From the NCBI GenBank assembly GCA_016869555.1, contig VGDY01000007.1, forward strand, positions 1 to 55,137: a stretch of 55,137 nucleotides of DNA. The letters are read 5' to 3'. The DNA comes from Alphaproteobacteria bacterium. Its GTDB lineage: Bacteria; Pseudomonadota; Alphaproteobacteria; Rhizobiales; Beijerinckiaceae. Both the position numbers and the translations under genes were made by a program. Under the pieces are notes generated by a model, which worked only from the letters and a program-made list of their open reading frames with translations, was not told the origin of the DNA and searched no databases. Positions 2,383-21,100 of the stretch are shown here, one piece after another (the stretch's first letter is position 1; each line of letters begins with the position of its first letter).

Positions 2383-3429
2383 CTAGACAGAACGATCGAG
2401 ATAATGGATTTCGGAAACCTCGCGAAGACGCGCCGCCGCCGCTTCCGGCGTGATGTCGCGCTGGGGTTCGCCGAGCATTTCGAATCCCACCATGAACTTG
2501 CGCACGTTCGCCGAACGCAAGAGCGGCGGATAGAAATGCGCGTGAAAATGCCAGCCGGGGTGAGGCGCGCCGTCGGCAGGACGCTGGTGAAACCCCATCG
2601 AATAGGGAAAGTCGGTTTCAAACAGATTGTCGTAGCGAATGGTCAGTCGCTTGAGAATGTCGGCGAGCGCCTGCGCCTCTTCGCCGGTAAGATCGTCGAA
2701 AGAACCGATATGCCGTGTCGGCAGCACGATGGTTTCGAACGGCCAGATCGCCCAGAACGGAACCAGCGCGACGAAATGATCATTGCGGCAGACAATCCGC
2801 TCGGCGCGTCTTTGTTCGAGCGCCAGATAGTCGCAGAGAAGACAGGAGCCATTCCGTTCCAGATAAGCGCTTTGCCGTATCGATTCCTTGACGAGTTCAT
2901 TGGGTATGCTGTGCGTCGCCCAGATCTGGCAGTGCGGATGCGGATTGCTCGCGCCCATCGCCGCGCCGCGATTTTCGAAAATCTGCACATAATTGATCAT
3001 GTCGTCAGCGCCGAGCCGCATGGTTTCCTCGCGCCACGCCTCGATGACCGGAACGATTTCCGCAACGCTCATGCGCGGCAGGGTCAGATCGTGCCGCTCC
3101 GAAAAACACAGCACGCGGCATCGGCCGGGTTCGCTCTGCGCGACAAGCAGTCCGTCATGAACGAGATTCTGCGCTGGCGCTTGAGACGTGAGCGCCGCGA
3201 AGTCGTTGTCGAAGGCGAAAACGCGTTTATAGGGAGGATTTCGTTCGCCATTCGCCCGTTCATTGCCGGGACAGAGATAGCAGGTCGGATCATATCGGGG
3301 CCGATCCGCATCGCGCATTTTCTCGACCTGTCCTTGCCAGGGACGGCTCGTGCGATGCGGCGACACCAGAACCCACTCGCCGGTGAGCTGATTGAGCCGG
3401 CGATGCGAGGCGCTATCGAGCAGCGACAT
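2383..3429 (-). CDS. galT: galactose-1-phosphate uridylyltransferase
   Basis: Second step of the Leloir pathway: exchanges UMP between UDP-glucose and galactose-1-phosphate. The 348-residue length is normal. The active-site triad His164-Pro165-His166 falls at the same numbers as in the E. coli enzyme, with His166 the uridylylated nucleophile. The structural metal-site cysteines appear as Cys50 and Cys53 in PTCYLCPGN. The start codon lies inside the end of galK (17-base overlap), so the two are translationally coupled and galK is translated first. No galE is visible in the window, so the epimerase must be elsewhere. Confidence 0.95.
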
Positions 3430-4600
3430 GCGCCGCTCCTGTCAGGCCGGCCGGGCCAGCGCCGGGACCGGGAACGCAAGTGAGAATGGGCGGCGTAACG
3501 CCCATCGCGGTTCGATATCTCTCCGCCATTGTCTGCGCGAATGCTTCGGTGCGCGTTCCGTCGACGAGATTGATCGTGCAGCCGCCAAAACCGCCGCCCA
3601 TCATCCGCGCGCCATAGACTCCCGGAACGCTGCGTGCGATTTCGACCATCAGGTCGAGTTCGGCGCAGCTCACCTGATAGTCGTCGCGCAGGCTGTCATG
3701 CGAGAGATTCATCAGACGGCCGCATGCCTCGAGGTCTCCCGCATCGAGCGCCGCGGCGGCGCGCAGCGTTCGATCGATCTCGCCAACGACATGGCGCGTG
3801 CGGCGAAACACGAGCTCCGGCATCAAATCGGCGTAGCGTATCAATTGGTCAAACGTCACGTCGCGCAAGGCCGACACGCCGGCGATCCGCGCCGACAGCG
3901 CCGCGACCGCGCGCTCGCAGTCTTCGCGGCGCGCATTATACTCGTCGGCTGCGAGCCGGTGGCGCACCATGGTGTCGCAAAGGACAAGACGCGCTTTCGG
4001 ATCAATCGCAACCTTTCGCGCCGTGAGACTGCGGCAGTCCAGCAGCAGCGCGCTCCCCGCGACGGCGCAGCAGGATATATATTGATCCATGATGCCGCAG
4101 CGGACGCCGACGAATTGATTCTCGGCGCGCTGGCAAATCCTGGCGAGTTCGACTCTGTCGATTTCGGCGCCGGAAATCGATGCGAGCGCAAAGCCCGCCG
4201 AGACTTCGAAGGCCGCGGAGGCCGAGAGTCCGGCGCCGATCGGGAGATTGCCGTCAAAGAGAAGATCGGCGCCGCTCAGTCTGTAGCCGGCCTGCTCAAG
4301 AAAAATCGCGACGCCGCGGATATAGTCGCTCCAGTCGCCGCGCGGCCACGCCGCCGGATCGTCGAGATCGAATTCGACGATCTCGTCCATGATCAGCGAG
4401 CGCAGGCGCAGACGCCGATCGGAGCGCGGGGCGATCGCGGCCCAGATTGAAAGGTCCAGCGCCGCGGGCATGACGAAGCCGTCATTGTAGTCGGTATGTT
4501 CGCCGATGAGATTGATGCGGCCGGGCGCCCGAAACAGGCGCGGCGCGCGCTGGAAGCTCTGGCGGAAGGCGGCGATCAGATCGCGCTCGATCGATTCCAT
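3413..4600 (-). CDS. galK: galactokinase
   Basis: GHMP-family kinase that phosphorylates galactose at C1 using ATP, feeding galT. The galactokinase signature [13 protein letters not shown] is at residues 27-39 and a glycine-rich MMGGGFGGC block near 335 matches the third GHMP motif. An ATG at 4600 gives 395 residues; a GTG at 4609 adds three residues and cannot be excluded. It is the first gene of a galK-galT pair and is divergent from the GH42 beta-galactosidase, so the roughly 85 bases between them must hold both control regions. I see no recognisable operator there. Confidence 0.95.
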
Positions 4601-4684
4601 GCCAGCCACAGTCCCGTTGTCATCAAACCGTCAAGACGACGACGCATCGAACGCGCGACAGGGAAATCAAATGATCGTCTGCGC

Positions 4685-6646
4685 ATGACACGTCAACGCC
4701 TCGGCGTTTGCTACTATCCCGAACATTGGCCAAAGTCACGCTGGCGCGAAGACGCGGCCATGATGAAGGACATCGGCCTCTCCTTCGTCCGCGTCGGCGA
4801 ATTCGCCTGGTCGCGGCTGGAGCCTTGCGACGGCGTCTATGATTTCGCCTGGCTCGCCGACGCCATCGATACGCTCCATCGCGCCGGCCTCAAAATCGTG
4901 CTTGGAACGCCGACGGCGACGCCGCCCAAATGGCTTGTCGACAAAATGCCGGACATGTCCGCGCTCGACGCCAATGGGCGGCCGCGCAAATTCGGTTCGC
5001 GCCGGCATTATTGTTTCAGCCATGAAGGCTATGCTCAGGAATGCGAGCGCATCGTCGAACGTCTGGCGCAAAGTTTCGGCGCGCATACCGCCATCGCCGC
5101 ATGGCAGACCGACAATGAATATGGCTGCCACGACACCGTGCTGAGCTATTCGCCGGCGGCGCTGCAGGCGTTTCGCCGATGGCTGAAAGCCAAATATCGT
5201 CGCATCGAGACGCTGAACGAGGCCTGGGGCAATGTGTTCTGGTCGATGGACTATCGAAGCTTCGACGACATCGAACTTCCCAATCTGACCGTCACCGAGG
5301 CCAATCCTTCGCATCTGATGGATTTCCAGCGCTTCTCGTCGGATCAAATCGTCGCCTTCAACCGGCGCCAGGTCGAGATCATCAGACGACATGCGCCGGG
5401 CGCGACGATCCTTCACAACTTCATGGGGTCATTCGTCGACTTCGATCATTATGCGCTTTGCGACGATCTTGATGTCGCCGCGTGGGACAGCTACCCGCTC
5501 GGCTTTCTCGAACGCTCGTCGCATGACGACGACTTCAAGCTGCGCTACATGCGGGTCGGCGATCCCGACTTTCAGGCCTTTCATCACGACCTCTATCGCG
5601 CCTGCGGGCGCGGCAGATGGCAGGTGATGGAACAGCAGCCGGGACCGGTGAATTGGGCGCCGTGGAATCCCGCCCCCGCCGAAGGCGCGCTGCGGCTCTG
5701 GACCTTCGAGGCCTTCGCCGCCGGGGCCGAGGCCGTGAGCTATTTTCGCTGGCGCCAGGCGCCCTTCGCGCAGGAACAAATGCATGAAGCGCTGCTGCTG
5801 CCGAACGCCGAGCCGAATGAGGGCTACGACGCCGTCGCGCGCATTTCGCAGGAGCTCGCCATGCTCGATGCGCAGGTCGAAACGGTGCGCGCGCCGGTCG
5901 CGCTGATCTTCGACTATGAGAGCGCCTGGGCGTGGCGCATCGAGCCGCAAGGTCAGGACTTCGCCTATTTCGACCTCGTCCTGTCAATTTACCGAGGCCT
6001 GCGGCGCGCCGGTCTTTCCGTCGACGTGATTGCGCCGACCGCCGCGGCCGTCGCCGATCGCAGGCTGATCGTCGCGCCTGCGCTCTTTGCGCCATCCGAG
6101 GACTTCGCGCGGGCGCTGGCGGAGAGCGGCGCGACCATCCTGCTCGGGCCCCGCGCCGGATCGAAGACCGCCGACTTCCAAATTCCGGCCGATCTGCCGC
6201 CGGGAGCGCTGCGACGCCTCATCGACATTCGCGTCAGACGGGTCGAGAGCCTTCGTCCCGGCGCGTCTATTAAGATATCCGGCGAGGGCGCCTTCGTGCG
6301 GTGGCGCGAATTTTTGCTGCTCGGCGAGAGCGTTCGGCGCGAACTCGCATCGGACGACGGCGAGACGGCGCTCGCGCGATGCGGCGACGTCTTCTATCTC
6401 TCGGGCTGGCCCGACGACAAACTGCTGGCGAGCGTCCTGCGCCGCGTTTTCCACGCCGCTGAAATCGCGACGCTCGATCTCGCCGAAGATATCCGCATCC
6501 GCGACAATGGCGCGATGCGCTACATTTTCAACTATGGCGCCGAGGCGACGGATATCTCGGCGCTCATCGGGGAAGAAACGCTGTTGCTCGGCGCGCCGAT
6601 GCTCGAACCTTGCGGCGTCGCCGCCTTCAGACGCGCCTTGTCTTGA
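4685..6646 (+). CDS. beta-galactosidase, glycoside hydrolase family 42
   Basis: Retaining GH42 enzyme of 653 residues that releases galactose from lactose or beta-galactosides. Domain A (TIM barrel) starts at once with GVCYYPEHWP. The acid/base is Glu145 in TDNEYG and the nucleophile is Glu316 in MEQQPG, both in typical contexts. Trimerisation and C-terminal beta domains follow. There is no signal peptide, so it acts in the cytoplasm on imported sugar. The frame is open further upstream to 4496, but that part runs antisense into galK and lacks family similarity, so the ATG at 4685 is used. Together with galK-galT this makes a lactose/galactose-utilising block, although no sugar permease lies beside it. 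Confidence 0.92.
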   Translation: MTRQRLGVCYYPEHWPKSRWREDAAMMKDIGLSFVRVGEFAWSRLEPCDGVYDFAWLADAIDTLHRAGLKIVLGTPTATPPKWLVDKMPDMSALDANGRPRKFGSRRHYCFSHEGYAQECERIVERLAQSFGAHTAIAAWQTDNEYGCHDTVLSYSPAALQAFRRWLKAKYRRIETLNEAWGNVFWSMDYRSFDDIELPNLTVTEANPSHLMDFQRFSSDQIVAFNRRQVEIIRRHAPGATILHNFMGSFVDFDHYALCDDLDVAAWDSYPLGFLERSSHDDDFKLRYMRVGDPDFQAFHHDLYRACGRGRWQVMEQQPGPVNWAPWNPAPAEGALRLWTFEAFAAGAEAVSYFRWRQAPFAQEQMHEALLLPNAEPNEGYDAVARISQELAMLDAQVETVRAPVALIFDYESAWAWRIEPQGQDFAYFDLVLSIYRGLRRAGLSVDVIAPTAAAVADRRLIVAPALFAPSEDFARALAESGATILLGPRAGSKTADFQIPADLPPGALRRLIDIRVRRVESLRPGASIKISGEGAFVRWREFLLLGESVRRELASDDGETALARCGDVFYLSGWPDDKLLASVLRRVFHAAEIATLDLAEDIRIRDNGAMRYIFNYGAEATDISALIGEETLLLGAPMLEPCGVAAFRRALS

Positions 6647-6656
6647 CGCGAAGCGT

Positions 6657-7670
6657 TCAGAAGACGAGCCAGGACGCGACGACGAAATAGGTCAGAAGCG
6701 AAAAAGTGTCCTGCACCACGGTGGCGACCGGTCCGGAGCCGAGCGCCGCGTCAAAACCGAGCCTTGCGAACAGCCAGGGCATCAGAAAACCAAAGGCTGT
6801 GGCGATGGCGCTCGCGACCGCCAGCGAAATCCCGACGGTCGCGGCAAGCCCGACGCTCGAAAAGAAGAACCAGACGATCGGAAAGGCAAGACAGCCCAGC
6901 ATCGCGCCGAGCAGCGCCCCGGTCCCGAGTTCGCCCGCAAACAGCGGCAGCAGGGCGGAATCGGTCAGGGACAGCCCGCGAACGACCACGACTTCCGATT
7001 GCGTGCCGACCGAATCGGCAAGATAGATGATCGCCGGAATAAAGAAGGCGACCGCGATATGCGCGCTGAGCGCGGTCTCGAAGCGCGACATCATCGCCGT
7101 CGACGCGGCGCTGCCCGCCATGCCGACAAGCAACCAGGGCAATCGATAGAGCGCGCGACGGTGCGGCGCGGCCGTCAGGGCGTCTTTGGCGGCCTCGGAC
7201 TTGCCGAGGATGCCCACCATATGATGCAGATCCTCGAGATGCTCGTCGCGCAGAATCGTCATCAGCGCGCGCGCCGGCACGGCGCCGAGAAACCTGCCTT
7301 CCGCATCGCAGACGGCCAAGATCGACAGACCTGCATGAATGGCGACGCTGGCCGCGGCTTCGCGATCCGTATCGATGGAAACGCTATAGGCCTCGGCCGT
7401 TCGTGCGATATCATGCAGCGGCGTCGTCTCCGGCGCGCCAAGCAGATCGCGTATGGCGACGACGCCGATGAGACGACGATCCTCGGCAAGCGCGAAAACA
7501 TGCGAGGCGTCGTCGAAGCGCCGCCCGATCAGTCGCGCCCGCGCCTCGCCGGCGCTCTCTTGCGAGCCGGCTGTGGGGACCGACGTCACAAGATAGCGTC
7601 CGACCGTCTGGCCGTTCATCTCCGCTGGAGGCAGGCGGTCTGGCGTCGGGATTTGGGACATTGCGGTCAT
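6657..7670 (-). CDS. MgtE-type magnesium transporter
   Basis: Inner-membrane divalent-cation channel of the MgtE/SLC41 family, 337 residues. It lacks the usual N-terminal superhelical domain and starts directly with a CBS pair (about residues 20-140), followed by a plug-helix-like stretch (LEDLHHMVGIL) and five predicted membrane helices (about 175-335). Family motifs are LADSVGTQSE in the second helix region and SGPVATVVQD before the last helix; the Asp of the latter corresponds to the pore Asp of MgtE. In the family the CBS domains sense cytosolic Mg2+ and close the pore. The gene is convergent with the beta-galactosidase and divergent from the two small metal-domain proteins at 7892-8683, so it may belong to the same cation module. 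Confidence 0.85.
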   Translation of the reverse strand: MTAMSQIPTPDRLPPAEMNGQTVGRYLVTSVPTAGSQESAGEARARLIGRRFDDASHVFALAEDRRLIGVVAIRDLLGAPETTPLHDIARTAEAYSVSIDTDREAAASVAIHAGLSILAVCDAEGRFLGAVPARALMTILRDEHLEDLHHMVGILGKSEAAKDALTAAPHRRALYRLPWLLVGMAGSAASTAMMSRFETALSAHIAVAFFIPAIIYLADSVGTQSEVVVVRGLSLTDSALLPLFAGELGTGALLGAMLGCLAFPIVWFFFSSVGLAATVGISLAVASAIATAFGFLMPWLFARLGFDAALGSGPVATVVQDTFSLLTYFVVASWLVF

Positions 7671-7891: not shown

Positions 7892-8239
7892 ATGAAACCC
7901 TTTGGATTTGCATTGGGCGTTCTGACCGGAGCCGCCGCGGTTTTGCTGCTCAACCGTCAGGAAACGCGGCGCGTGCGTCCGGTCGCCAAAGCGGCGCTGA
8001 AGGCGGCGATGATGGCCTATCATGAAGCGCGCGTGCAAGGCGCCGAACTCGCCGAAGCCGCCGAGGATCTCTTCGCCGAAGCGAAGACCGAGGCCGCCGC
8101 CGATATTTTCGCGGCGGCGATGGCCGCCGCTCAGGCGAAGGCGAAGCACGAAGCAAAATCCGACGCGGCCTCCAAATCCGAGACCGGCGCGACGACGGCC
8201 GAAGCCTCGGCGTCGCGCGCCGCGGGCGAGAGCGCTTAA
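7892..8239 (+). CDS. membrane-anchored DUF5132-like protein
   Basis: A 115-residue protein. The first 20 residues (MKPFGFALGVLTGAAAVLLL) form one hydrophobic helix with glycines. Next comes a basic RRVRPVAKAALKAAMMAYHEA segment, then a long Ala/Glu/Lys-rich helix and a low-complexity Ala/Ser/Thr/Glu tail. The helix plus the PVAKAALKA segment resembles the DUF5132 family, small proteins often encoded near HMA-domain proteins and P-type ATPases; that assignment rests on memory of the family. Its stop codon directly abuts the ATG of the HMA_2-like gene, so they form an operon. It might be a membrane adaptor; its function is not known. Confidence 0.6.
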   Translation: MKPFGFALGVLTGAAAVLLLNRQETRRVRPVAKAALKAAMMAYHEARVQGAELAEAAEDLFAEAKTEAAADIFAAAMAAAQAKAKHEAKSDAASKSETGATTAEASASRAAGESA

Positions 8240-8683
8240 ATGACCCAAACATCTCCGCCATTGGCGCAGGTCGCCCACGCCATGCCGGGCCGCGCGCGGC
8301 TGCGGATCGCCGACCGCCGCGGCGACGACGCTTACTTTGCTTTGGTCGCCAAGGCCCTTTCGGCGATCGCCGGCGTTCGCGCCGTCGAAGTGGCGCCGAT
8401 GACGGGCAGCGTTCTCATTCAGCACAGCGGTCCTTTGGCGCGCATCGGCGTCGCCGCGCAGGAGGCGCAGCTTTTTGTCGTCGGCGAAGCGCCTGCGGCG
8501 CCGCGCGAGGCGCCGCAAGTCGTGATCGACCCGAAAATCGTCGCGGCGCTGGCGCTGTTCGCCGCGGCGCTTTGGCAAATGTCGAGAGAACGCTTCCTGC
8601 CGCCGGCGGTCACTTTGCTTTGGTACGCGAGCCGGCTCGGCGGCGTCTGGTCGCTCGACGGCGACGGCGAGAATGGGGAATAG
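8240..8683 (+). CDS. HMA_2-like metal-associated domain protein
   Basis: A 147-residue protein. Residues 8-75 have the HMA_2-like pattern: a HAMPGRARLRI strand, a helix ending in AIAGVRAVEV, and a TGSVLIQH strand. This is a ferredoxin-like fold without the CXXC metal ligands of classical HMA domains. A hydrophobic stretch (about 97-113) probably anchors it in the membrane. The same domain pattern occurs at the N-terminus of the P-type ATPase encoded at 9857-12889, which suggests a shared partner or ligand. It starts on the base after the stop of the preceding gene and is convergent with the MetK paralogue, leaving only two bases between the two stops. Confidence 0.65.
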   Translation: MTQTSPPLAQVAHAMPGRARLRIADRRGDDAYFALVAKALSAIAGVRAVEVAPMTGSVLIQHSGPLARIGVAAQEAQLFVVGEAPAAPREAPQVVIDPKIVAALALFAAALWQMSRERFLPPAVTLLWYASRLGGVWSLDGDGENGE

Positions 8684-8685
8684 GC

Positions 8686-9867
8686 TTAAAACTTCAGCGC
8701 ATCCACGATGTCGATCGCTTCCCACGGGAGATTGAGATCGGCGCGGCCGAAATGGCCATAAGTCGCGAGCGGCAGATAAAACCCCTTCGCGCCGGCTGTT
8801 TGCGGGGCCGTGCGCAAGCCGAAGCGTCGGACGATCGCGGCCGGACGGAAATCGAGAAGCTCCGCGAGTATTCTGGCGAGCCTGTCGTCGGCGAGACGGC
8901 CGGAGCCGAAGGTCTCGACCGAGAGACTGAGCGGCTCCGCCTGCCCCGCCGCGTAAGCCAAATGAACCTCGCAGCGCTCGGCGAGGCCCGCCGCGACGAT
9001 GTTCTTGGCGGCATGTCGAGCGGCGTAAGCGCCGGCGCGTTCGATGCGCGAAGGATCCTTGCCTGAAAGCGCCGAGCCGCTCTGGCGCGCAATCTCGCCA
9101 TAGGTGTCGATCCCGTTCTTGCGTCCGGTCAGGCCCGCGTGACGCGCCGGTCCGCCGATGTCGAACGGCTCCCCGGCGTTGACATGAACGCTGGTCTGAC
9201 CGTCTGGCGTCATCTCGCCGACCGAGAGCGCATCGAGCGCGATCGCGCGCAATCGTTCGAACCTGTCGTCATTGAGCGCCGCGCCGTCGAAGGCGACGGT
9301 GAGCGACACGCCGTGAATGCGCGTCGGGCGACCGCCACAAAATTCGACGGAGACTTGCGTCTTGGCGTCGGGCGACAGTGACGCAAACCCGTCGCGGCGC
9401 GCGGCGTCAAGCGCGCGCGCGATTCTGTGCGCGAGAACGATCGGCGCCGGCATGAATTCGGGCGTATCGCGGCAGGCGTAGCCGAAAACATTGGCTTGCT
9501 CATGCGCGACGCGCCTGCCGATCGCCGCGTCGTCGGCGAGGTCCGAGAGCGGCGGCTCGCGCGCGTCGAGCGTCAATTCGACGAAGCTCGTGAGAATCGA
9601 GCAATTGCGCGCGTCAAAGCTCCCCGCGGCATAGCCGGCGTCTTGCATCACCGTCCGCGCCAGCGCCGGCAAATCGACGAGCGCATCGGCGGCGTAGCGC
9701 GCGGCGAGAAAGACGACGCCCGTCGCCAGGGCGCACTCCACTGTCGCGCGCGTGCGCGCGTCCTCGCGCAGCAGCGCGTCAATCGCCGCGTCGCTGATCT
9801 GATCGCAGAGCTTGTCGGGATGCCCCGGCGTCACCGACTCCGACGTGAAGATCATGTCAGGAGACAT
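8686..9867 (-). CDS. divergent MetK (S-adenosylmethionine synthetase) paralogue
   Basis: A 393-residue protein of full MetK length, with the three-domain fold readable throughout: TSESVTPGHPDK (8-19), FGYACRDTPEFMPAPI (128-143), LTGRKNGIDTYG (246-257), GKDPSRIERAGAY (269-281) and a YGHFGR block near the end. Kept catalytic positions include His16, Asp18, Glu44, Lys169, Arg249, Lys250 and Lys270. Four positions differ from E. coli MetK: Asp118 is Glu123, Asp238 is His243, Lys269 is Arg274 and Asp271 is Glu276; the normal GDQG loop reads HEQA. Three of the four well-studied active-site aspartates are therefore changed. The start at 9867 follows GGAG at good spacing and lies inside the ATPase 3' end (11-base overlap), so translation is coupled. 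It is unlikely to be the housekeeping enzyme; altered activity or a regulatory role is inference. Confidence 0.82.
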   Translation of the reverse strand: MSPDMIFTSESVTPGHPDKLCDQISDAAIDALLREDARTRATVECALATGVVFLAARYAADALVDLPALARTVMQDAGYAAGSFDARNCSILTSFVELTLDAREPPLSDLADDAAIGRRVAHEQANVFGYACRDTPEFMPAPIVLAHRIARALDAARRDGFASLSPDAKTQVSVEFCGGRPTRIHGVSLTVAFDGAALNDDRFERLRAIALDALSVGEMTPDGQTSVHVNAGEPFDIGGPARHAGLTGRKNGIDTYGEIARQSGSALSGKDPSRIERAGAYAARHAAKNIVAAGLAERCEVHLAYAAGQAEPLSLSVETFGSGRLADDRLARILAELLDFRPAAIVRRFGLRTAPQTAGAKGFYLPLATYGHFGRADLNLPWEAIDIVDALKF

Positions 9868-12800
9868 GGCTTTCTCCATTGGCGCGCGGCGGCGCTTCCT
9901 CGCGATCCGCAATTCTGCCGACGACATCGTTGGCGAGCGAACTGCCCAGAGCGATTGCGCCGATTCGCAAGAGATCGCCGGGGCCAAGCGGCGAGAGGCC
10001 GAGAAGGCGCCGGGTCAATGGAAAGAGCTGCACGCCAAGCTGCAACAGCAGGGTGGCGCCGACGCCGCCGTAAAGCATCGTATTCGACGGCCTGCCGAGC
10101 TCAAAGCTCAATCCCCGTCGCTCGGATCGGCAGGCGAGGCTGTGGAGCAGCTGGCCGCAGGTAATTCCGTGAAAAGCGACCGTGCTGGCGCGCGCCCCGC
10201 CGGCGGCGCCGCCGAGACTGAAATAGCCCAAGAGGGCGGCGACGCCCATCACCGAACCTTCTCGAAGAATCCGCCGGAAGTCGGAAGCGGCGAGTATCGG
10301 CGCTTTCGGATCATGCGGCGGCCTGTCGAGCACATCTGGCTCTGGCGGCTCGATTCCAAGCGCAATCGCCGGCAGCGCGTCGGTCGCGAGATTGAGCCAA
10401 AGCAACTGCATCGGCGTCAGCGGCTCGCCGCCGACCAGCGCCGCGCCGAACATGGCGATGGTCTCTGACGCATTGGTCGAGACGAGATAGCGAAGCACCT
10501 TGCGGATATTGGCGTAAGTGGCGCGGCCGAGCCTGATCGCCTCGACAATGCCGTCCATGTCGTCCGTCGCGAGCACGATATCGGCGACCTGACGGGCGAC
10601 GTCGGCGCCTTCGCCGCCCATCGCGATGCCGACGTTCGCGGCCCGCAAGGCGGGCCCGTCGTTGACGCCGTCGCCGGTCATCGCGACGATATGGCCGTGC
10701 CCTTGCAGCGCCTTGACGATGTTGAGCTTGTCGACGGGGCTGACGCGCGCGAACACCTGCGGCTGGCGCGCCAGCGCCTCCAGCGTCTCTGGCTGCATTT
10801 TCGCCATCTGGCCGGCTTCGAGCACGCGCAGCTCACCGCCGTCATTCAGATCAAGCCGCCGCGCGATCGCAAATGCGGTCGCGCTCTGATCGCCGGTGAT
10901 CATCACCGTGCGCACGCCGGCGCGATGCAGCTGTTTGAGCGCCGGCGCGACGCTGGCCCGAACAGGATTCGCCATGCCGGCGAGGCCGAGCCAGATTAGC
11001 GCTCGTTCGTCGCGGGGATCGCCGCCGGCTTCGCCGACAGCGACCCCGAGGACGCGCAGCGCGTCGCCGGCCATGCGCTCATTGGCCTTGAGAATGGCCG
11101 TGCGCGCCACATCGTCGAGCGGCGCGACGCCATTGGCGGTCCGGCGCGCGGCGCAGCGCGCGAGCACCTCGGCCGGATCGCCTTTGACGCAAAGAATGCG
11201 CGCGCCGTCAGCCGCTTGGTGAAGCGTGCTCATGCGCTTGCGGCCATCGCCGCGCGCCACGCATGTCAGCATAGAAAAAGACCGGCGCAGCGCGATTGGA
11301 TCGACTCCCATCGCCACGCCCGCTTCGATCAGCGCGGTTTCGGTCGGCGTGCCGTCGATTTCCCAACTGCTCCTCGCGGGCCTGACGCCGGCGCCGCTGC
11401 ACAGCGTCGCCGCTTCGAACAGCCGACGCGCGATGGCGACCGCATCGGCTGTCGCATCGGCGCCGTCGCGCAGCAGATGTCCGTCCTGCAGATCGAATGC
11501 GCCGTCGTCGACGTGAACGCGGACGGTCGCCATGCGGTTTTCAGTCAGCGTGCCGGTCTTATCGAGTCCGATCGTTTCGATCGCCCCGAGCGTCTCCACG
11601 GCGTCGATCTTGCGCACCAGCACCTTGCGCTTGCGCATGTCCTGCACGCCAAGAGCGAGCGTGGTGGTCGCGACTGCGGGAAGTCCTTCAGGAATTGCGG
11701 CCACGGCAAGCGAAATCGCGCTGCGCAAAGTGGGAATGAGCCCATGGCCGCGCAAAAGGCCAAGAGCGAAGACGCTCACGCAAATCAGACCGTTGACGAC
11801 GACGAGCTCGCGCTCGACCTCGCCCAGTTCGCGCTGGATCGGAGTCGGCGGCGGCCGCAGCGCGCCGAGCAATCGTTGCACGCGGCCGATCTCCGTCTGC
11901 GCCCCGATCGCGGTGACGATCGCCATGCCCGATCCGCCGGTCGCCGCCGTTCCGCGAAACACCATGTTGCGACGATCCGAAATTCCCGTTTCCGGCGACA
12001 AAACCACATCGTCGTCTTTGGGCGCCGGTTGAGCCTCGCCAGTGAGCGGCGATTCATTCACGGTCAGATCGTCACTGGCGATCAGGCGCGCATCGGCCGC
12101 AACGAACGCGCCGCGCTCGATCAGCAAGAGGTCGCCCGGCGCGAGATCGCGCGAGTCGATCTTCAGGCGCGCGCCGTCCCGGATGACGGCGGCGTCCGAC
12201 GGCTCCTCGCCGGCAAGGCCCAAAATCGCGCGATCCGCCTGGCGCTCGGTGGCCGTGGCGATGCCGGCGTTGACGAGCACCACGGCGGCGATCATCACCG
12301 CATCGGCGATTCCGCCGGTCGCCAGCGACACCGCCGCCGATGCGGCGAGCAAAGCGACAGGCAGGCTGGACATCTGCTCGGCGAAAATGCTCGCCGCCGA
12401 GCGCGGCTCCTCGCGGCGCAGCTCGTTGCGCCCCCATTTCTCCAATCTTGCGGCGGCTTCCTCTGTCGATAGCCCGCGAGCGACGTCCGTTTTCAATCGC
12501 GCCGCGAGCGTTGTGATCGTCTCGGCATGAGCGGCGCGTTCCGGGGCGTGCGAACCGTCCGCGTTGCGCGCGGGCGCGCCGGCGATCGCCGCTTCAAGCG
12601 CCTGCATCAGCCGCGCGGTGGTCATCGGCGGCTGAAATTCGACGAGCGTCGAACCGGTCCATTCGCTGGCGCGAACCCGGCGCACGCCGGGAAGATGGCG
12701 AAGTCGCTCCTCGACGGCCCGCGCCAATGCTGCGCGGCCGCGCAAGCTCATGTGGCGCATGCGCACGCGGCCGGCGCAAGCGTCGTGAACAAGCTCGGCG

Positions 12801-12889
12801 CCGGGTTGCGCGCGCGCCTCGACGCCGAAGCGACGCGAATTTAGGGGAGCGATATCTGCATCCGTCCCGGCGAGGATCATCGAGCACAT
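9857..12889 (-). CDS. SERCA-like P2-type cation-transporting ATPase with N-terminal HMA_2-like domain
   Basis: A 1010-residue inner-membrane pump. Residues about 35-100 form an HMA_2-like domain (LPGVRRVRASEWTGSTLVEF), followed by the cation-ATPase N-terminal domain. The actuator loop has LTGEA (282-286). The M4 motif is PEGLP (400-404), the phosphorylation site DKTGTLTEN (Asp443) and the hinge TGDGVNDGP (738-746). Membrane ligands match SERCA Ca2+ sites: Asn806 and Glu809 in TNASE (M5) and Asn833, Thr836 and Asp837 in NLATD (M6). By family rule this suggests Ca2+ or Mn2+ export. M4 is not the CPC type, so heavy-metal P1B transport is unlikely. The hinge usually reading DPPR is NPVR. ATG codons at 12889 and 12880 are both possible. 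The MetK paralogue gene overlaps its 3' end. Confidence 0.88.
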   Translation of the reverse strand: MCSMILAGTDADIAPLNSRRFGVEARAQPGAELVHDACAGRVRMRHMSLRGRAALARAVEERLRHLPGVRRVRASEWTGSTLVEFQPPMTTARLMQALEAAIAGAPARNADGSHAPERAAHAETITTLAARLKTDVARGLSTEEAAARLEKWGRNELRREEPRSAASIFAEQMSSLPVALLAASAAVSLATGGIADAVMIAAVVLVNAGIATATERQADRAILGLAGEEPSDAAVIRDGARLKIDSRDLAPGDLLLIERGAFVAADARLIASDDLTVNESPLTGEAQPAPKDDDVVLSPETGISDRRNMVFRGTAATGGSGMAIVTAIGAQTEIGRVQRLLGALRPPPTPIQRELGEVERELVVVNGLICVSVFALGLLRGHGLIPTLRSAISLAVAAIPEGLPAVATTTLALGVQDMRKRKVLVRKIDAVETLGAIETIGLDKTGTLTENRMATVRVHVDDGAFDLQDGHLLRDGADATADAVAIARRLFEAATLCSGAGVRPARSSWEIDGTPTETALIEAGVAMGVDPIALRRSFSMLTCVARGDGRKRMSTLHQAADGARILCVKGDPAEVLARCAARRTANGVAPLDDVARTAILKANERMAGDALRVLGVAVGEAGGDPRDERALIWLGLAGMANPVRASVAPALKQLHRAGVRTVMITGDQSATAFAIARRLDLNDGGELRVLEAGQMAKMQPETLEALARQPQVFARVSPVDKLNIVKALQGHGHIVAMTGDGVNDGPALRAANVGIAMGGEGADVARQVADIVLATDDMDGIVEAIRLGRATYANIRKVLRYLVSTNASETIAMFGAALVGGEPLTPMQLLWLNLATDALPAIALGIEPPEPDVLDRPPHDPKAPILAASDFRRILREGSVMGVAALLGYFSLGGAAGGARASTVAFHGITCGQLLHSLACRSERRGLSFELGRPSNTMLYGGVGATLLLQLGVQLFPLTRRLLGLSPLGPGDLLRIGAIALGSSLANDVVGRIADREEAPPRANGESHVS

Positions 12890-13198
12890 TGTCTGGCGCG
12901 CATCGAAGCCCGCATTTCACGACCGTTCGATGACATTCGGAGCGATGCGCTCCGTGGTGTTTCAGGGAGGCCATAATAGCGCGAAGTGCAGGCGAAACCG
13001 ATGAGAACTTGCGCCCTGTCCGGAAGGAGCGCGTCGGGAGGGCTCGGCAATCCGCTCGAAAGCGCGTATTTTCCGCAGCCCCTTCCCTTATGGCCCCGTC
13101 AAGGTCGCAAATTTAAGAAAAATGTCGAGAAGCGCTGAACCGACGCCTATGCCGAAAATGCCGACCGAATTTCCATATTGGACACGGCGGCGTCTCTG
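12890..13198. other. intergenic region between P-ATPase and cytochrome genes
   Basis: About 310 bases between two divergent genes, so it must hold both promoters. A short palindrome CGGAGC-GATGC-GCTCCG lies at 12938-12954, in the probable leader of the ATPase gene. TATTAT on the minus strand near 12972 could be a -10 element but has no good partner. Nothing codes convincingly. Confidence 0.4.
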
Positions 13199-14998
13199 AT
13201 GCGCGCCTTCTCGCGAATGTCATTTGCCGCATGCATGGCGTTGGCGATGCGCGCCTGTTTGGACGCGCCGGCTTTGGCGCAGACGACGCCCTCCGACGGC
13301 GAGTGGCGCGCGGAACAGGCCAAGCGTCTGAACGCGCTCGACGCCTATGTCAGCCGGAAGCCGATCGCCTATCGCTGGTTTGCGGATTTTCCGTTTAGCC
13401 GGACGGACGGCGTCCCTTTCATCATCCTGAAGCTCCTGCCGAAGCTCGCGCCGGAAGAATGGGGAAGCGCGAATAATTTTCTCGATGTCGCCGGCCTCTT
13501 CATCGACGAGCGCGACCCGACCTATCCGATCGCGCGCGGCTTCGGCTGGACAGGCTTGGCGCGCGAGGATCCAAACGGCGGCGTCGATTACGCCGCGATG
13601 AGTTGCGGCGCGTGCCACATCGGCCGCGTGCGGCTTGACGACGGCAGTCTTCGCTATCTCGACGGCGGCGTGAACGCGCAGTTCAATCTCATTCAATATC
13701 GCGTCAGAGTGATCAACACGATCAAGAAGATCACCGAAGGGGCCGCAACGCTCGAGGAAAAGGTCGAACGCGCGACGCAGGCGATTGTCTCGAAGCTCGA
13801 CAAAATCCATGCTCAAGACAAGAATTTCTTTTACCGGAATTACACATTCGCCGGCCGCCGGTTCGACGCCGCCTATGAGGCGCGGCAGATCGAACTCTTC
13901 AAACAGGACGCCGCCGCGATCGTCGGAAAATATCTTGCCCGCGCCGGACTCGAATTCTTCTCGCTGCTCGATCTCATCTCGAAGAACTACCGAGGCTTCG
14001 AGGAGCAGATGACGCAAGGCCTCGGCGGCATGGTCGATGCGGCCGGCGTCAGCGCGTCGATGGCCTATGTCGCCGCCGAAGCGCGCGGCGAAATTCCCGA
14101 CCCGAAGACCTATCTGCCGCCGACGCCAGGAATCGCCGATATCATGGCCGTTTGGGAGCAGCGTAAGCGCCGGCCGCGCTGGTCCGCGGATCATACGCAG
14201 CTTGTCGACGGCGGCGGCCAATGGACCGGCCACATTCCGATTCCGATCTTTAGTGGCCTCGCCGCGCAATTGACGCTGGAGTCCGGACCCGACGTCGACA
14301 TTCGCATCGCCGCTTTCAGCGAAGATTTGCTGCGCGATCTGCCGGCGCCGGCCTATCCCTTCTCCGTCGATCTTGCGCTCGCAAAGAAAGGCGCGGCGCT
14401 CTTTGAAGAGAATTGCGCCCCATGTCATCGGCCGAATAACGGCAAGGTCTATGATCTTGGCGCCGATCTCAGCCGGGCGCGGGCCGTCAGCGATACGATC
14501 GCGAAAAGCGTCCGCGACAGCTTCGCAAAGATTTGTCCGACGACCAAGGTCATCGAAATGCCGCCCTCGGGCGATCGCATCGCGCCCTGCGCGAAACTCG
14601 ACGGCGTGTCGCTCGAGAGCCGCGCCGACCTCTCCATCGCCGATCCTCAGACGCTTGAAGGCTATAATGCGCTGCCGCTCGGCGGCGTCTGGGCGCAGGC
14701 GCCCTATCTGCACAATGGCTCGGTGCCGACGCTGTATCATCTTCTCGTACCGCGCGAGCGCCCGGCGATTTTCGTGAAAGGCCGGCTCGACTACGACAAG
14801 AAGCTCGTCGGCTTCTCCTGGCAGCCGGCGCAGACGCTCTCGCGCGAGGGCTATCGTTTCGACACGACCTCTTTTCCGGCGCTCTCCAACAAGGGGCACG
14901 ACAAGAATGTCGTCGAGGACGGCAAGAGTTTGAAGCTCGACTGGTCGGACGACGTCGCCGGCGCCATGGCCATCGTCGAATATTTGAAGACGAAGTGA
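13199..14998 (+). CDS. RoxA-like dihaem c-type cytochrome
   Basis: An exported protein of 599 residues with a signal peptide (cleavage near ALAQ-TT) and two haem c attachment sites, CGACH (136-140) and CAPCH (406-410). The block GGVWAQAPYLHNGSVPTLYHL near residue 495 is characteristic of the RoxA/RoxB-type family and related dihaem cytochrome c peroxidase-like proteins. In that family one haem is the active site and the other transfers electrons; known members cleave polyisoprene by dioxygenation, but many homologues have no known substrate. The ATG at 13199 is used; a TTG seven codons upstream is also open. It is an isolated gene with no cytochrome maturation gene nearby. Substrate unknown. 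Confidence 0.78.
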   Translation: MRAFSRMSFAACMALAMRACLDAPALAQTTPSDGEWRAEQAKRLNALDAYVSRKPIAYRWFADFPFSRTDGVPFIILKLLPKLAPEEWGSANNFLDVAGLFIDERDPTYPIARGFGWTGLAREDPNGGVDYAAMSCGACHIGRVRLDDGSLRYLDGGVNAQFNLIQYRVRVINTIKKITEGAATLEEKVERATQAIVSKLDKIHAQDKNFFYRNYTFAGRRFDAAYEARQIELFKQDAAAIVGKYLARAGLEFFSLLDLISKNYRGFEEQMTQGLGGMVDAAGVSASMAYVAAEARGEIPDPKTYLPPTPGIADIMAVWEQRKRRPRWSADHTQLVDGGGQWTGHIPIPIFSGLAAQLTLESGPDVDIRIAAFSEDLLRDLPAPAYPFSVDLALAKKGAALFEENCAPCHRPNNGKVYDLGADLSRARAVSDTIAKSVRDSFAKICPTTKVIEMPPSGDRIAPCAKLDGVSLESRADLSIADPQTLEGYNALPLGGVWAQAPYLHNGSVPTLYHLLVPRERPAIFVKGRLDYDKKLVGFSWQPAQTLSREGYRFDTTSFPALSNKGHDKNVVEDGKSLKLDWSDDVAGAMAIVEYLKTK

Positions 14999-15930: not shown

Positions 15931-16737
15931 ATGACCCATCCGCTGGCGTCGCTGCGGAAAAGCTTGGCTTGCGCCTATCCGGCCGCGGCTTTCGAGACGG
16001 TCGCGCTCGGCGCGCCCGCCCTCGATCGGCGGCTCGGCGGCGGGATTCTCCGCGCCGCGCTGCATGAGGCCTATGCCGAGACCGCCGCCGACGCCCCGGC
16101 GGCGACGGGCTTCGCTTTGGCGCTCGCCAGGCGCGCCATGGCGGGAGCGGAGAAGCCGCTGCTCTGGGTCCGGCAGGAGGCGCTGACCGCCGAAGCGGGC
16201 GCGCCCTATCCGCCTGGCCTCGCCGACATCGGCCTCGACCCCGCCGCCGTCGCCTTCATTCGCGTGCGCGACGCCAGGGAGGCGCTGCAGGCGGGCGCGG
16301 AAGCCGGGCGCTGCGCCGCGGTCGGCGCGACGCTGATCGAACTCTTCGGCGCAGCGCGCGCCTATGACCTCACCGCGAGCCGGCGCCTCGCTCTGGCGGC
16401 CGCTGCCGCCGGCGCGCCGATCTTCATCGTCCGCGCCGGCGCCGTCTCCGCGCCGAGCGCCGCCGCGAGCCGCTGGCTTGTGCGGGCGCTCCCCTCCCGC
16501 CCGCTTGCGGCGAATGCGCCGGGGTCCGCGGCCTTTGCGATTTTTCTGCTGCGCCGGCGCGGCGGCGCGGCGGGGCAAGAGCGGCAAGAGTGGCGTGTGG
16601 AGTGGAGCCGTGACCGTGGCGCCTTCAAGGACAGAATATTCGACGCACCGTCGTTATCTCGCCCTGTGGCTTCCCTTTCTGTCGGCGGAGCGCCTGACGA
16701 AGGCGCGTCGCAGACAGCCGGACGCAAATTCGGATGA
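15931..16737 (+). CDS. imuA: ImuA, SOS mutagenesis accessory protein
   Basis: First gene of the imuA-imuB-dnaE2 translesion mutagenesis cassette. The 268-residue protein is a RecA/SulA-like fold: a LGAPALDRRLGGGILRAALHE strand-turn near 25-46, hydrophobic strands at LLWVRQEA and IFIVRAGA, and an Arg-rich C-terminus. It is Ala-rich like its neighbours. In mycobacteria and Caulobacter the ImuA-class protein helps ImuB and DnaE2 work at stalled forks. A LexA box lies directly upstream. The imuB start (GTG 16610) lies within the last 128 bases of imuA, so translation is coupled. Confidence 0.88.
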   Translation: MTHPLASLRKSLACAYPAAAFETVALGAPALDRRLGGGILRAALHEAYAETAADAPAATGFALALARRAMAGAEKPLLWVRQEALTAEAGAPYPPGLADIGLDPAAVAFIRVRDAREALQAGAEAGRCAAVGATLIELFGAARAYDLTASRRLALAAAAAGAPIFIVRAGAVSAPSAAASRWLVRALPSRPLAANAPGSAAFAIFLLRRRGGAAGQERQEWRVEWSRDRGAFKDRIFDAPSLSRPVASLSVGGAPDEGASQTAGRKFG

Positions 16738-18199
16738 TTCGCCGCTCGTCCTCGTCAAGAAAGAGCGCAGCGCGCTGCGCATCGACGCGCTCGATCGAAA
16801 GGCGATCGCGCTCGGCCTGACCCCGGGCATGACGCTGGCCGACGCCAAAGCGCGCGCCCCCCATCTCGCCGTCGCCCAGGCCGACGCCGAGGCCGACGAG
16901 CGGCTGATGCTGCGGCTCGCCGCCTTTTGCGAACAGTTCACGCCGCTCGTCGCGCTCGATCCGCCTTGCGGCCTCATGCTCGACGCGACCGGCTGCGCGC
17001 ATCTTTTCGGCGGCGACGCGGCGCTGCGGACCAGCGTCCTGCAGGCGATGGCGCGCCTCTCCTTCACCGGCCGCGCCGCCGTCGCCGGAACGCCGGACGC
17101 CGCGCGCGCCCTGGCGCGTTTTGGCGCGGAAGGCGTCACGCCTCCGGGCGAAGACGAAATTTTCGCCCGCCCGCTCTCCATCGCCGCGCTCGAAGCGCCA
17201 AGAGAGACGAGCGTCGCGCTGACGCGCGCGGGACTTGCGACCTTGGGCGATCTTGCCGATCGCTCCAGCGCCGCGCTGACGGCGCGTTTCGGCGATGAAA
17301 CCATGCGGCGGCTGACGCGCATTCTGGGACGCGAGGACGCCCGCATCACGCCCTTGCGGGTCTTGCCGGACTGCATGGTCGAGCGGCGCTTCGCCGAACC
17401 CTTCCTCGATCTCTCCGCGATAGAACATGTTCTGCGGCCGCTGATCGCGGAAGCGATGGGCCTTCTCGAAAAGCGCGGGCAAGGCGGCCGCGCTTTCGAA
17501 GCGCGCTTCTTTCGCACCGACGGCGCCGTCCGCGCGCTATGTTTCGAAACCGGCGCGCCCTCGCGCAATGTCGAGGCGCTGCTGCGGCTCTTTCGCCTGA
17601 AGGCCGACTCGCTCGCCGATCCGCTCGATCCGGGATATGGCTTCGACGTCATCCGCTTTGGCGTCCTCAACGCCGAAACTCTGGCGCAAAGCCAGATCGG
17701 CTTCGAACGGCGGGACGCGCAAGACGGCGATTTCGCCGATCTCGTCGATCGCCTCGCGGCGCGTTTTGGCCGCGAACGCGTGCTGCGCTTCGCGGCGCGT
17801 GACACGCATGATCCCCTGCGCGCCGCCGCCTATGTCGACGCCGCCGCGTCTCCTTCTTCCCCGCCCGGCGCCTGGCCGAAGCCCGAGCCGGGCGAACCGC
17901 CCTTGCGGCCACTGTTTCTGTTCGATCCGCCGCAGCCCATCGAAACCATGGCCGAGACGCCGGACGGGCCGCCGATGCATTTCAAATGGCGCCGCGTGCG
18001 CCATTTGATCGCCCGCGCCGAAGGACCGGAGCGCATCGCGCCGGAATGGTGGCGCAACGCCGCCGGCGCGCGCCGGCGAACCCGCGACTATTACCGGCTG
18101 GAGGATCGCGACGGCCGCCGCTTCTGGGTGTTTCGCGAGGGCCTCTACGAAAGCGAAACCGCCGCGCCGCGCTGGTTTCTGCATGGGCTCTTCGCATGA
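16610..18199 (+). CDS. imuB: ImuB, Y-family polymerase-like protein
   Basis: A 529-residue Y-family DNA polymerase homologue that bridges the beta clamp and DnaE2 but is thought not to polymerise. It begins with RRYLALWLPFLSAERL. The acidic metal-binding residues of active Y polymerases are not seen in their usual places (ALWLPF and LMLDATGCAHLFGG stand there instead), which fits the catalytically dead ImuB class. The start is GTG 16610, with GGAG seven bases upstream; the frame stays open further left only as a shadow of imuA. Its TGA overlaps the dnaE2 ATG (ATGA at 18196). Confidence 0.88.
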   Translation: MTVAPSRTEYSTHRRYLALWLPFLSAERLTKARRRQPDANSDDSPLVLVKKERSALRIDALDRKAIALGLTPGMTLADAKARAPHLAVAQADAEADERLMLRLAAFCEQFTPLVALDPPCGLMLDATGCAHLFGGDAALRTSVLQAMARLSFTGRAAVAGTPDAARALARFGAEGVTPPGEDEIFARPLSIAALEAPRETSVALTRAGLATLGDLADRSSAALTARFGDETMRRLTRILGREDARITPLRVLPDCMVERRFAEPFLDLSAIEHVLRPLIAEAMGLLEKRGQGGRAFEARFFRTDGAVRALCFETGAPSRNVEALLRLFRLKADSLADPLDPGYGFDVIRFGVLNAETLAQSQIGFERRDAQDGDFADLVDRLAARFGRERVLRFAARDTHDPLRAAAYVDAAASPSSPPGAWPKPEPGEPPLRPLFLFDPPQPIETMAETPDGPPMHFKWRRVRHLIARAEGPERIAPEWWRNAAGARRRTRDYYRLEDRDGRRFWVFREGLYESETAAPRWFLHGLFA

Positions 18200-21100
18200 G
18201 CCCGCCTTTCGCCGAACTCGTCGCGGCGACGAATTTCTCCTTCCTGCGCGGCGCGTCGCATCCGTCAGACATGGCGCTGACGGCGCTGCTGCGCGGCCAG
18301 AACGGAATTGGAATCGCCGACCGCAACAGCGTCGCCGGCGTCGTGCGCGCCTATGCGGCGCTCAAAGATCTGCGCGAAAATCTCCGCGATCCGCCGGCCG
18401 GCGACCACGCCGCGCTTCTCGCGCAGCTCGACGCAGGGCGTATCGAATCCTTCAAGCTCATCGTCGGGGCGCGGCTCGTCTTCGCTGATGAAACGCCCGA
18501 CATCGTCGTATATCCGCAAAACCGCGACGGCTGGGGAAGGCTCACGCGGCTGCTCACGACCGGGAATCTGCGCGCCAGGAAAGGCGAATGCCATCTTTAT
18601 GTCGACGATCTCGCGCAAGCCGCGCGCGATCTGCTGCTGATCGTCATGCCGTCGCGCCATCTGGCGCGCCTGCCGTCGACGCTGGCGCGGCTCAACGATC
18701 TGGCGCAAGGCGACGTCTGGCTCGGCGCGACCATGCCGCGTCGCGGCGACGACAGGCGGCGCCTTGCAAGACTGAAAGACATCGCCGCGCGAACGCAGAC
18801 GCCTCTGCTCGCGACCAATGACGCGCTTTACGCCGATTCCGGCCAGCGCGATCTGCAGGACGTCATGACCTGCATTCGCGAAGGCGTGACGCTCGCGCAG
18901 GCCGGGCGCCGGCTGGAGGTCAACGCCGAGCGCCATTTGAAGACGCCCGATGAAATGGCGCGTCTCTTTACCGAGGCGCCGGAGGCGATCGAAGAGACGC
19001 AATGTTTTCTGGCGCGCGTCGATTTCTCGCTCGATCAATTGAAATATGAATATCCCGACGAACCCGTGCCGCCAGGGCGCAATCCCCAGGAATGGCTCGA
19101 GGAGCTGACCTGGCGCCACGCCGCGATGCGCTATCCCGACGGCGTGCCGGAGAAGGTCGAAAAGCTCCTGCGCGAGGAGCTGGCGCTCATCGAGACGCTC
19201 GACTATGCGCGCTATTTTCTCACCATTCACGACATCGTACGGATCGCCGAAGACAAGGGGATTCTCTGCCAGGGGCGCGGCTCCGCCGCCAATTCCGCCG
19301 TCTGCTATGTGCTCGGCGTCACCTGCGTCGATCCGGCGGAGAATGATCTGCTCTTCGCCAGATTCATCTCGCAGGAGCGCAAGGAGCCGCCCGACATCGA
19401 TGTCGATTTCGAGCATGAGCGGCGCGAAGAGATCATCCAGCATATTTACGGCAAATACGGCCGCGAGCGCGCCGGACTCGTCGCGACCGTCATCAGCTAC
19501 CGGCCGCGCAGCGCCATTCGCGAAGTCGGCAAGGTCTTCGGACTGACCGAGGACGTGACCGCCGCGCTCGCCGGCATGCAATGGGGCAGTTGGGGCTCCG
19601 ACATTCCGCTGGCTTACGTTCGCCAGACCGGGCTTGATCCCGAAAATCCCGTCATCCGCCGCGCCATTCATTTCGCCAAGCGGCTGCTCGGCTTTCCGCG
19701 CCATCTCTCGCAGCATGTCGGGGGCTTCGTTCTCGCGCGCGGGCGGCTCGACGAACTGACGCCGATCGCCAACGCCGCGATGCCGGAGCGCACCTTCATC
19801 GAATGGGACAAGGACGACATCGACGCGCTCGGCCTGATGAAGGTCGACGTGCTGGCGCTCGGCATGCTCACCTGCATTCGAAAATGTTTCGATTATTTGC
19901 GCGCCCACGAAGGAAAGGACATGGGCCTCGCCGACGTCCCGGCCGACGATAGAGCGACCTACGACATGCTGTGCCGGGGCGACTCGATCGGCGTCTTTCA
20001 GGTCGAGAGCCGCGCCCAGATGAACATGCTGCCGCGCCTGAAGCCGCGCGAATTCTACGATCTCGTCATTCAGGTGGCGATCGTGCGGCCCGGACCCATT
20101 CAGGGCAATATGGTGCATCCCTATCTGCGCCGCCGCTCCGGCAGCGAGCCGGTGATCTATCCCTCGCCCGCGCCGGAACACGGGCCGGCGGACGAATTGC
20201 GCAAGGTGCTCGAAAAGACCAAGGGCGTGCCGCTCTTTCAGGAGCAGGCGATGAAGCTCGCCATGGTCGCGGCGAAATTCTCCGACGTCGAAGCCAATCG
20301 TCTGCGCCGCGCCATGGCGACCTTCCGCAATGTCGGCACGATCCATCAATTCGAATCAATGATGGTCGAGCGCATGGCGGCGCGCGGCTATGATCGCGCA
20401 TTCGCGCAAAGCTGTTTCGAGCAGATCAAGGGCTTCGGCTCCTACGGCTTTCCCGAAAGCCATGCCGCATCCTTCGCCAAGCTCGTCTATGTCTCCTCAT
20501 GGATCAAATGCCATCATCCGGCGATCTTCGCCTGCGCGCTCCTTAATTCGCAGCCGATGGGCTTTTACGCGCCGGCGCAGATCGTGCGCGACGCGCGCGA
20601 GCATGGCGTCGACGTGCGCGCCGTCGACGTGAATTTCAGCGAATGGGACAATAGGCTGGAGCGCGCGGATAACGGCGATTTGGCGCTGCGTCTCGGCTTT
20701 CGGCAGGCGGACGGCGTGCATGAGAACGAAGGCTATCGCATCGTCGACGCACGGACGAAGCCCTATGACAGCGTCGAAGATCTCGCGCGGCGGGCGGCGC
20801 TCAACGGCGCGACGATGCGCGCGCTCGCCGACGCCGACGCCTTCCGCTCCCTGCAAAGCGACCGCCGCGACGCGCTCTGGGCTGTGCGGCGTCTGCCTGA
20901 CGCGAAGCCCCTGCCGCTCTTTGCGGCCGCGGACGCGCGCGAACTCGCCAGGGAAGAAGATCCGCTGCTGCCAAAGATGTCGCTTGGCGAACATGTCGCG
21001 GCCGATTACCAGACGCTGCGGCTGTCGTTGAAGGCCCATCCGATGGCGGTGCTGCGGCCGATTTTCACGCGCGAGCGGATTATCACTTGCGCGGAAGTTT

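Follow-up and report, generated by a model that had tools for sequence, protein, structure and literature searches.

Gene Content of the metK2 Locus

The window examined here, a stretch of 55,137 nucleotides from a Beijerinckiaceae genome, carries on its reverse strand a gene that we call metK2 (positions 8686–9867). Its product of 393 amino acids is a MAT-fold paralogue in which methionine-contact residues are replaced (Arg57, Leu98, and His243) and triphosphate and magnesium residues are kept (His16, Asp18, Lys169, Arg249, Lys250, and Lys270). Translation starts at an ATG at 9867, shortly preceded by a GGAGA stretch, and the start of metK2 overlaps the stop codon of the upstream gene by 11 nt. 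That gene (9857–12889, reverse strand) encodes a P2A-type, Ca2+-ATPase-like cation pump with an N-terminal HMA_2 domain, as assigned with Pfam, NCBIfam, and the PDB match to LMCA1 (458.7 bits).

Convergent with metK2, on the forward strand, is a gene for a small HMA_2-domain protein (8240–8683; Pfam HMA_2, 2.6e-11), and next to it, on the same strand, lies a DUF5132-like small protein (7892–8239, with 7892 as the probable start) whose Pfam match (E = 0.00019) reaches 21.8 of the 25 bits set as gathering score. An MgtE-like divalent cation transporter with a CBS domain, recognized by Pfam (6657–7670, reverse strand), is a looser member of the neighborhood. Genome G108, met through the MetK2 profile alone in a draw of 398 genomes, has homologues of the pump, MetK2, the convergent HMA_2 protein, and the DUF5132 protein in the order and orientation of the window (locus L163).

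The cation genes are flanked by genes of other kinds. galT- and galK-like genes and a GH42 β-galactosidase (2383–6646) adjoin them in a host presumed to be a methanotroph. On the other side is a large cytochrome c protein (13178–14998), which carries a RoxA-like domain and scores below the cut-off of the di-heme peroxidase subfamily (131.8 of 150 bits). The row of genes at 15931–21495 resembles ImuA (a weak match, 36.6 of 150 bits), Pol IV (also weak), and the error-prone DnaE2 (strong), and is probably a mutagenesis cassette.

Pfam finds the N-terminal, central, and C-terminal SAM synthetase domains in the metK2 product (8.7e-50, 4.5e-27, and 1.5e-22). The MetK fold proposed in the initial annotation is likewise predicted by an AlphaFold2 model built on 48 MetK2 sequences (pLDDT 89.4, pTM 0.91). 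SAM synthetases make up all of its 50 best listed matches in the PDB, including one entry with a phage SAM lyase bound. The least certain part of the model is residues 231–260 (pLDDT about 60), the segment that holds His243. With 313.2 bits, the product barely exceeds the 309.4 bits that NCBI sets as its metK equivalog cut-off, and such genes are therefore likely to be annotated automatically as SAM synthetases. The genome also has a canonical metK, a possibility raised with the initial annotation, as a separate gene on another contig, and its product is 38% identical to MetK2. This rules out MetK2 as the sole MetK of its genome, which, together with SAM formation at normal rates, had been named as an objection to the initial annotation.

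Active Site Residues of MetK2

We compared residues using E. coli K-12 MetK, in its literature numbering, as the ruler for three sets of rows: 26 distinct MetK2 of the Methylocystis group (condensed from 31), 43 MetK2 of other groups, and 38 canonical MetK, after one duplicate canonical row was taken out. The active-site aspartates of E. coli MetK have reportedly been probed by mutagenesis, to which the initial annotation alluded in describing a full-length homologue with substitutions at these positions. Every substitution that it listed is found against the E. coli protein: Asp118 is Glu123, Asp238 is His243, Asp271 is Glu276, Lys269 is Arg274, and the GDQG loop is HEQA, while Asp16 is kept as Asp18. 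The near-constant offset of +4/+5 that it gave applies further on in the protein, but the offset is +2 at the N-terminus. Additional changes, which it did not list, are Glu55 to Arg57, Gln98 to Leu98, Ser99 to Thr, Arg229 to Pro, and Gly253 to Glu258.

In E. coli MetK, Gln98, Asp238, and Glu55 are reported to contact methionine, and Asp163, Arg229, Phe230, and Ser99 to contact adenosine (PMC1282579); Glu70, Gln113, and Asp258 are named as the methionine-binding residues of human MAT (PMC6850014, PMC7271947). None of the three methionine contacts is matched in the window protein. On the triphosphate, magnesium, and potassium side, His14, Asp16, Glu42, Lys165, Arg244, Lys245, and Lys265 are identical, and Asp271 is the sole exception. 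The replaced contacts bear out the suggestion, made in the initial annotation, of a re-tuned MetK.

The same pattern extends through the family. Asp238 is His and Lys269 is Arg in 69/69 MetK2 rows; Glu55 is Arg in 59 of the 69, His in 7, and another residue in 3, and Gln98 is retained in only 3. The Glu55Arg, Asp238His, and Lys269Arg changes occur in 0/38 canonical rows, where Glu55 is Glu in 37 and Gln in 1 and both Asp238 and Lys269 are invariant, so within this sample the key substitutions are not a common feature of ordinary MetK enzymes. Conversely, His14, Asp16, and Glu42 are kept in all 68 MetK2 rows having a letter there, Arg244, Lys245, and Lys265 in 69/69, Asp163 in 68/69, and Lys165 in 60/69 (lost in 9). 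Two adenosine contacts are mostly changed to proline, Ser99 in 48/69 rows and Arg229 in 51/69. The emphasis of the initial annotation on three of four replaced aspartates overstates the family signal: Asp118Glu and Asp271Glu are conservative changes, Asp118 stays Asp in 17 of the 69 rows, and Asp271, although Glu in 19/26 Methylocystis-group proteins, is Asp in 42/43 outside that group. As judged from the alignment, the Asp271 to Glu change is local to the Methylocystis group, and the family-wide change is the loss of the methionine contacts Glu55, Gln98, and Asp238. Because these contacts are replaced and the triphosphate side is kept, MetK2 appears to have lost methionine recognition, with a switch of charge, and to have retained its grip on the ATP phosphates. 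A salt bridge between Arg57 and Glu258 that would plug the pocket was considered and rejected, since Glu55Arg and Gly253Glu show no covariation (p = 0.41, 43 rows).

These residues bear on whether MetK2 might be a spare SAM synthetase, with weak or conditional activity. Its passing of the metK equivalog cut-off and the retention of most triphosphate-side residues would fit such a role, as would the Gln113Ala variant of human MAT, which is reported to keep 75.6% activity (PMC6850014), so that loss of Gln98 alone says little. However, none of the three residues that contact methionine is conserved across the family, Asp238 being His without exception, and a canonical MetK accompanies MetK2 in 28/30 carriers; a spare would also need neither the fixed pump neighbor nor the co-inheritance with the pump described below. 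We consider this explanation improbable, and from its residues MetK2 probably makes little or no SAM.

Phylogeny and Distribution of MetK2

A tree of MetK paralogues, built with 107 of 129 sequences, places the 59 MetK2 rows on one side of a branch with an SH-aLRT of 100. The 48 canonical rows, among them the canonical MetKs of the same genomes, fall on the other. MetK2 is thus its own clade, in line with the paralogue relationship proposed at the outset. By their labels, the MetK2 rows belong to Pseudomonadota, Cyanobacteriota, Nitrospirota, and Thermodesulfobacteriota, with one Myxococcota record. At least 593 stretches in the genome collection matched the search pattern, of which 582 encode a relative; among the best 80, which were kept, 50 are closer by score to the window protein than to canonical MetK, unlike the other 30, and the closest named records are Methylocystis (71–96% identical). 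Copies in genomes of the same genus are 67–96% identical to the window protein, and the window itself very probably comes from a Methylocystis genome. A separate, high-scoring canonical MetK is present in 28/30 MetK2 genomes, the other two being MAGs of 4.5 and 2.5 Mb.

The distribution of MetK2 among bacteria is patchy. An even draw of 398 genomes of the phylum contained it in 2, one of which is that of the window, at a threshold (E 1e-130) strict enough to miss fragmentary copies, and it was found in 25/39 genomes of the genus (E 1e-100). Two cyanobacterial genomes (G066 and G069; L151–L154) have two copies each. One of the 25 genomes, a Methylocystis relative, has a metK2 split by an IS21 element, with istA- and istB-like ORFs between the two parts (L159; G032:C3:66000-78000). 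Together with related pumps that lack an adjoining MetK2 in three Methylocystis genomes, this split copy suggests that metK2 is dispensable.

Pairwise dN/dS among six Methylocystis-group metK2 copies is 0.10–0.38, which points to purifying selection. A recent pseudogene is ruled out by the intact frames, these dN/dS values, and conservation over five phyla, and a lineage-specific oddity by the occurrence of MetK2 and its residue pattern across groups. Family-wide substitutions under purifying selection argue that the changes in MetK2 reflect neither chance nor decay.

Association of MetK2 With the Pump

We searched the MetK2 loci by tblastn with the window pump and MetK2. In 67/73 loci, a set in which some Methylocystis genomes are counted twice through two collections, a pump lies directly upstream of metK2 on the same strand, with gaps of -7 to 497 nt between the match ends. 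This adjacency is seen in 29/30 loci within the Methylocystis group and 38/43 outside it. Three of the six loci with no pump match upstream are contig edges (L019, L047, and L071), and in two of them (L047 and L071) the edge carries an ORF that clusters with the pump. The remaining three are Calothrix-group genomes, where a pump homologue (42–44% identical) is present elsewhere in the genome. No pump match was found near canonical metK in any of 20 loci of 12 kb each, taken from 20 of the 28 MetK2 genomes having a canonical MetK, nor in any of 30 further loci, mostly from Chloroflexota and Bacillota and some with short flanks. One locus (L063) resembles a pump–MetK2 gene fusion in that it has one long ORF; it is probably not one, as the pump match stops where MetK2 starts and the N-terminal letters of the ORF look like a shadow frame.

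The two proteins also appear to share their history. In a mirror-tree analysis of 23 genomes, the correlation of MetK2 distances with pump distances is 0.944, compared to 0.726 for canonical MetK (MetK1) with the pump, and the partial correlation of MetK2 and pump given MetK1 is 0.897, which 0/5000 permutations reach; the 23 are drawn from 25 pairs, with L043 and L074 excluded for split or partial pump matches. The pump and MetK2 appear to have been inherited and moved together. Of the 13 Methylocystis genomes without MetK2, six of which are less than 90% complete, 11 have no pump match above 37% identity (E 1e-100); the exceptions are G012 (59% complete), with a 95% identical pump fragment, and G026, with a 43% identical homologue. 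In three genomes of the genus, G002, G009, and G026 (L156, L157, and L158), pumps match that of the window from residues 26–32 on and have no adjoining MetK2. Beside them are a DUF5132 gene in G009 (Pfam), a similar gene by eye in G026, and an HMA_2 homologue in G002 (blastp). These pumps nest within the tree of MetK2-paired pumps, which was restricted to matches of at least 600 aa that are free of stops.

Genes clustering with the HMA_2 and DUF5132-like proteins occur in 22/50 MetK2 loci. Among 118 neighboring proteins, hand-picked from 176 ORFs with most short ones and some longer, distant, or near-duplicate ones omitted, the commonest families are HMA_2 (22), DUF5132 (7), MgtE (4), CBS (4), the Na/Ca exchanger Na_Ca_ex (3), and HMA (3). 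In seven loci, long proteins with repeats and an amphipathic look are additionally encoded in the vicinity of the pump (including L042:952-1686, L052:2127-2831, L056:8875-9798, and L062:2159-2851), in hosts that include Nitrospirota, Nitrosospira, and Syntrophobacteraceae. The two that were scanned match no Pfam family above cut-off; in appearance these proteins recall granule-coating proteins.

The neighborhood informs a second explanation, in which MetK2 is an active adenosyltransferase for another acceptor. The acceptor would probably be an anionic thioether with no α-ammonium group, since one acid at the ammonium-binding site has become Arg and another His. The charge change at Glu55 and Asp238, the Lys269Arg change, the intact triphosphate site, and conservation under purifying selection are all consistent with this reading. 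Against it, the recurrent neighbors are cation-related, the 25 commonest of the 82 neighbor families include neither a pathway nor a methyltransferase family, and the adenosine contacts Ser99 and Arg229 are mostly changed as well. An alternative acceptor is conceivable, though we regard it as rather unlikely.

The Partner Pump

The best solved relatives of the window pump are LMCA1, SPCA1, and SERCA, with alignment from residue 120 on. The pump has the P-type ATPase core and the Ca-site residues of TM4, TM5, and TM6, while the TM8 residue differs by eye. Across 34 homologues, there is no variation at Glu401, Asn806, Glu809, Asn833, and Asp837, and we take them to be equivalent to the SERCA ion ligands E309, N768, E771, N796, and D800. 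These conserved membrane residues make Ca2+ the most likely pumped ion, although the pump does not reach the cut-offs of three curated Ca-ATPase equivalogs (TIGR01522, 533.6 of 798.3 bits; TIGR01116, 488.5 of 703.4 bits; TIGR01517, 386.6 of 507.05 bits). An AlphaFold2 model of the pump (pLDDT 79.1, pTM 0.65), read for secondary structure and confidence, predicts a separate α/β domain at residues 32–103, the region of the HMA_2 match.

Proposed Function of MetK2

Since the pump stands directly in front of metK2 in most loci, MetK2 probably serves the pump rather than SAM synthesis, although the adjacency can instead reflect shared regulation. Our best explanation, which we favor with a modest degree of confidence, is that MetK2 is a repurposed protein of the MAT fold whose split from the SAM synthetases is old, and which has no specific methionine recognition, keeps the ATP-triphosphate, magnesium, and potassium site, and is a dedicated partner of the HMA_2-type P2A ATPase. 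Points against it are the loss of Lys165 in 9/69 rows and the retention of Gln98 in 3/69, the low model confidence around His243, the pumps that lack an adjoining MetK2, the IS21-split copy, and the non-adjacent pumps of the Calothrix group. The initial annotation is partly upheld, in its re-tuned MetK paralogue, and is redirected toward a cation-pump partner; the neighboring pump had gone unmentioned in it.

MetK2 would bind ATP or tripolyphosphate with magnesium and potassium, may hydrolyze tripolyphosphate, and could thereby tune the pump or its anionic counter-ion; its exact action might be that of a sensor, a regulator, or a tripolyphosphatase. A retained tripolyphosphatase is plausible by analogy, because the human MAT variants Asp258Gly and Lys289Asn, at the equivalents of Asp238 and Lys269, are reported to lower SAM and spare phosphatase activity (PMC6850014). 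MetK2 might instead lack both catalysis and any part in ligand binding and act on the pump as a scaffold or chaperone, as the pump pairing and the loss of Lys165 in 9/69 rows would allow, but a pure scaffold would have no need of the almost invariant His14, Asp16, Arg244, Lys245, Lys265, and Asp163, and we think this unlikely.

More tentatively, the dedicated-partner reading may be extended to a previously undescribed cation module of the HMA_2-Ca2+-type ATPase, MetK2, and the small HMA_2 and DUF5132 proteins. In it MetK2, a converted SAM synthetase, would control a Ca2+ pump by sensing ATP/tripolyphosphate or acting as a tripolyphosphatase, and the pump may be one that fills a Ca-(poly)phosphate store inside the cell. 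A literature search, conducted mostly outside subscription journals, on a link between MetK and P-type ATPases, an inactive MetK paralogue, the active-site aspartates, and DUF5132 found no recognizable description of it among the papers listed. MetK is usually treated as a housekeeping enzyme with one function, and MetK2, if the proposal is true, would be a MAT to which bacteria have given a role other than SAM synthesis. Spanning five phyla, a clade whose methionine site is dismantled and whose pump partner is fixed offers a natural experiment separating the two half-reactions of MetK, and it connects nucleotide/tripolyphosphate chemistry with the handling of Ca2+ by bacteria in a concrete and testable way.

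Comparison With Known Systems

MetK2 has the three domains (PF00438, PF02772, and PF02773), predicted fold, and most triphosphate, magnesium, and potassium residues of bacterial and eukaryotic MetK (TIGR01034), and differs from it in the replaced Glu55, Gln98, and Asp238, its separate clade, and its genetic tie to a cation pump. Two positions changed in MetK2 are also those of the human hypermethioninemia variants above (PMC6850014). Those, however, are disease variants of one enzyme, while MetK2 is a conserved family.

Ferrosomes are marked by a locus with FezB, a P1B ATPase, and FezA. We rejected a ferrosome identity for the metK2 locus, as its pump is P2A-like and not P1B. The likeness to fezA/fezB is a resemblance only, that of small genes beside a P-type ATPase (PMC12574912).

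Compared to the P2A Ca2+-ATPases LMCA1, SPCA1, and SERCA, the partner pump keeps the Glu, Asn, Glu, Asn, and Asp membrane residues, and is set apart by its N-terminal HMA_2 domain, its MetK2 and HMA_2/DUF5132 neighbors, and its Ca-ATPase scores below the cut-offs.
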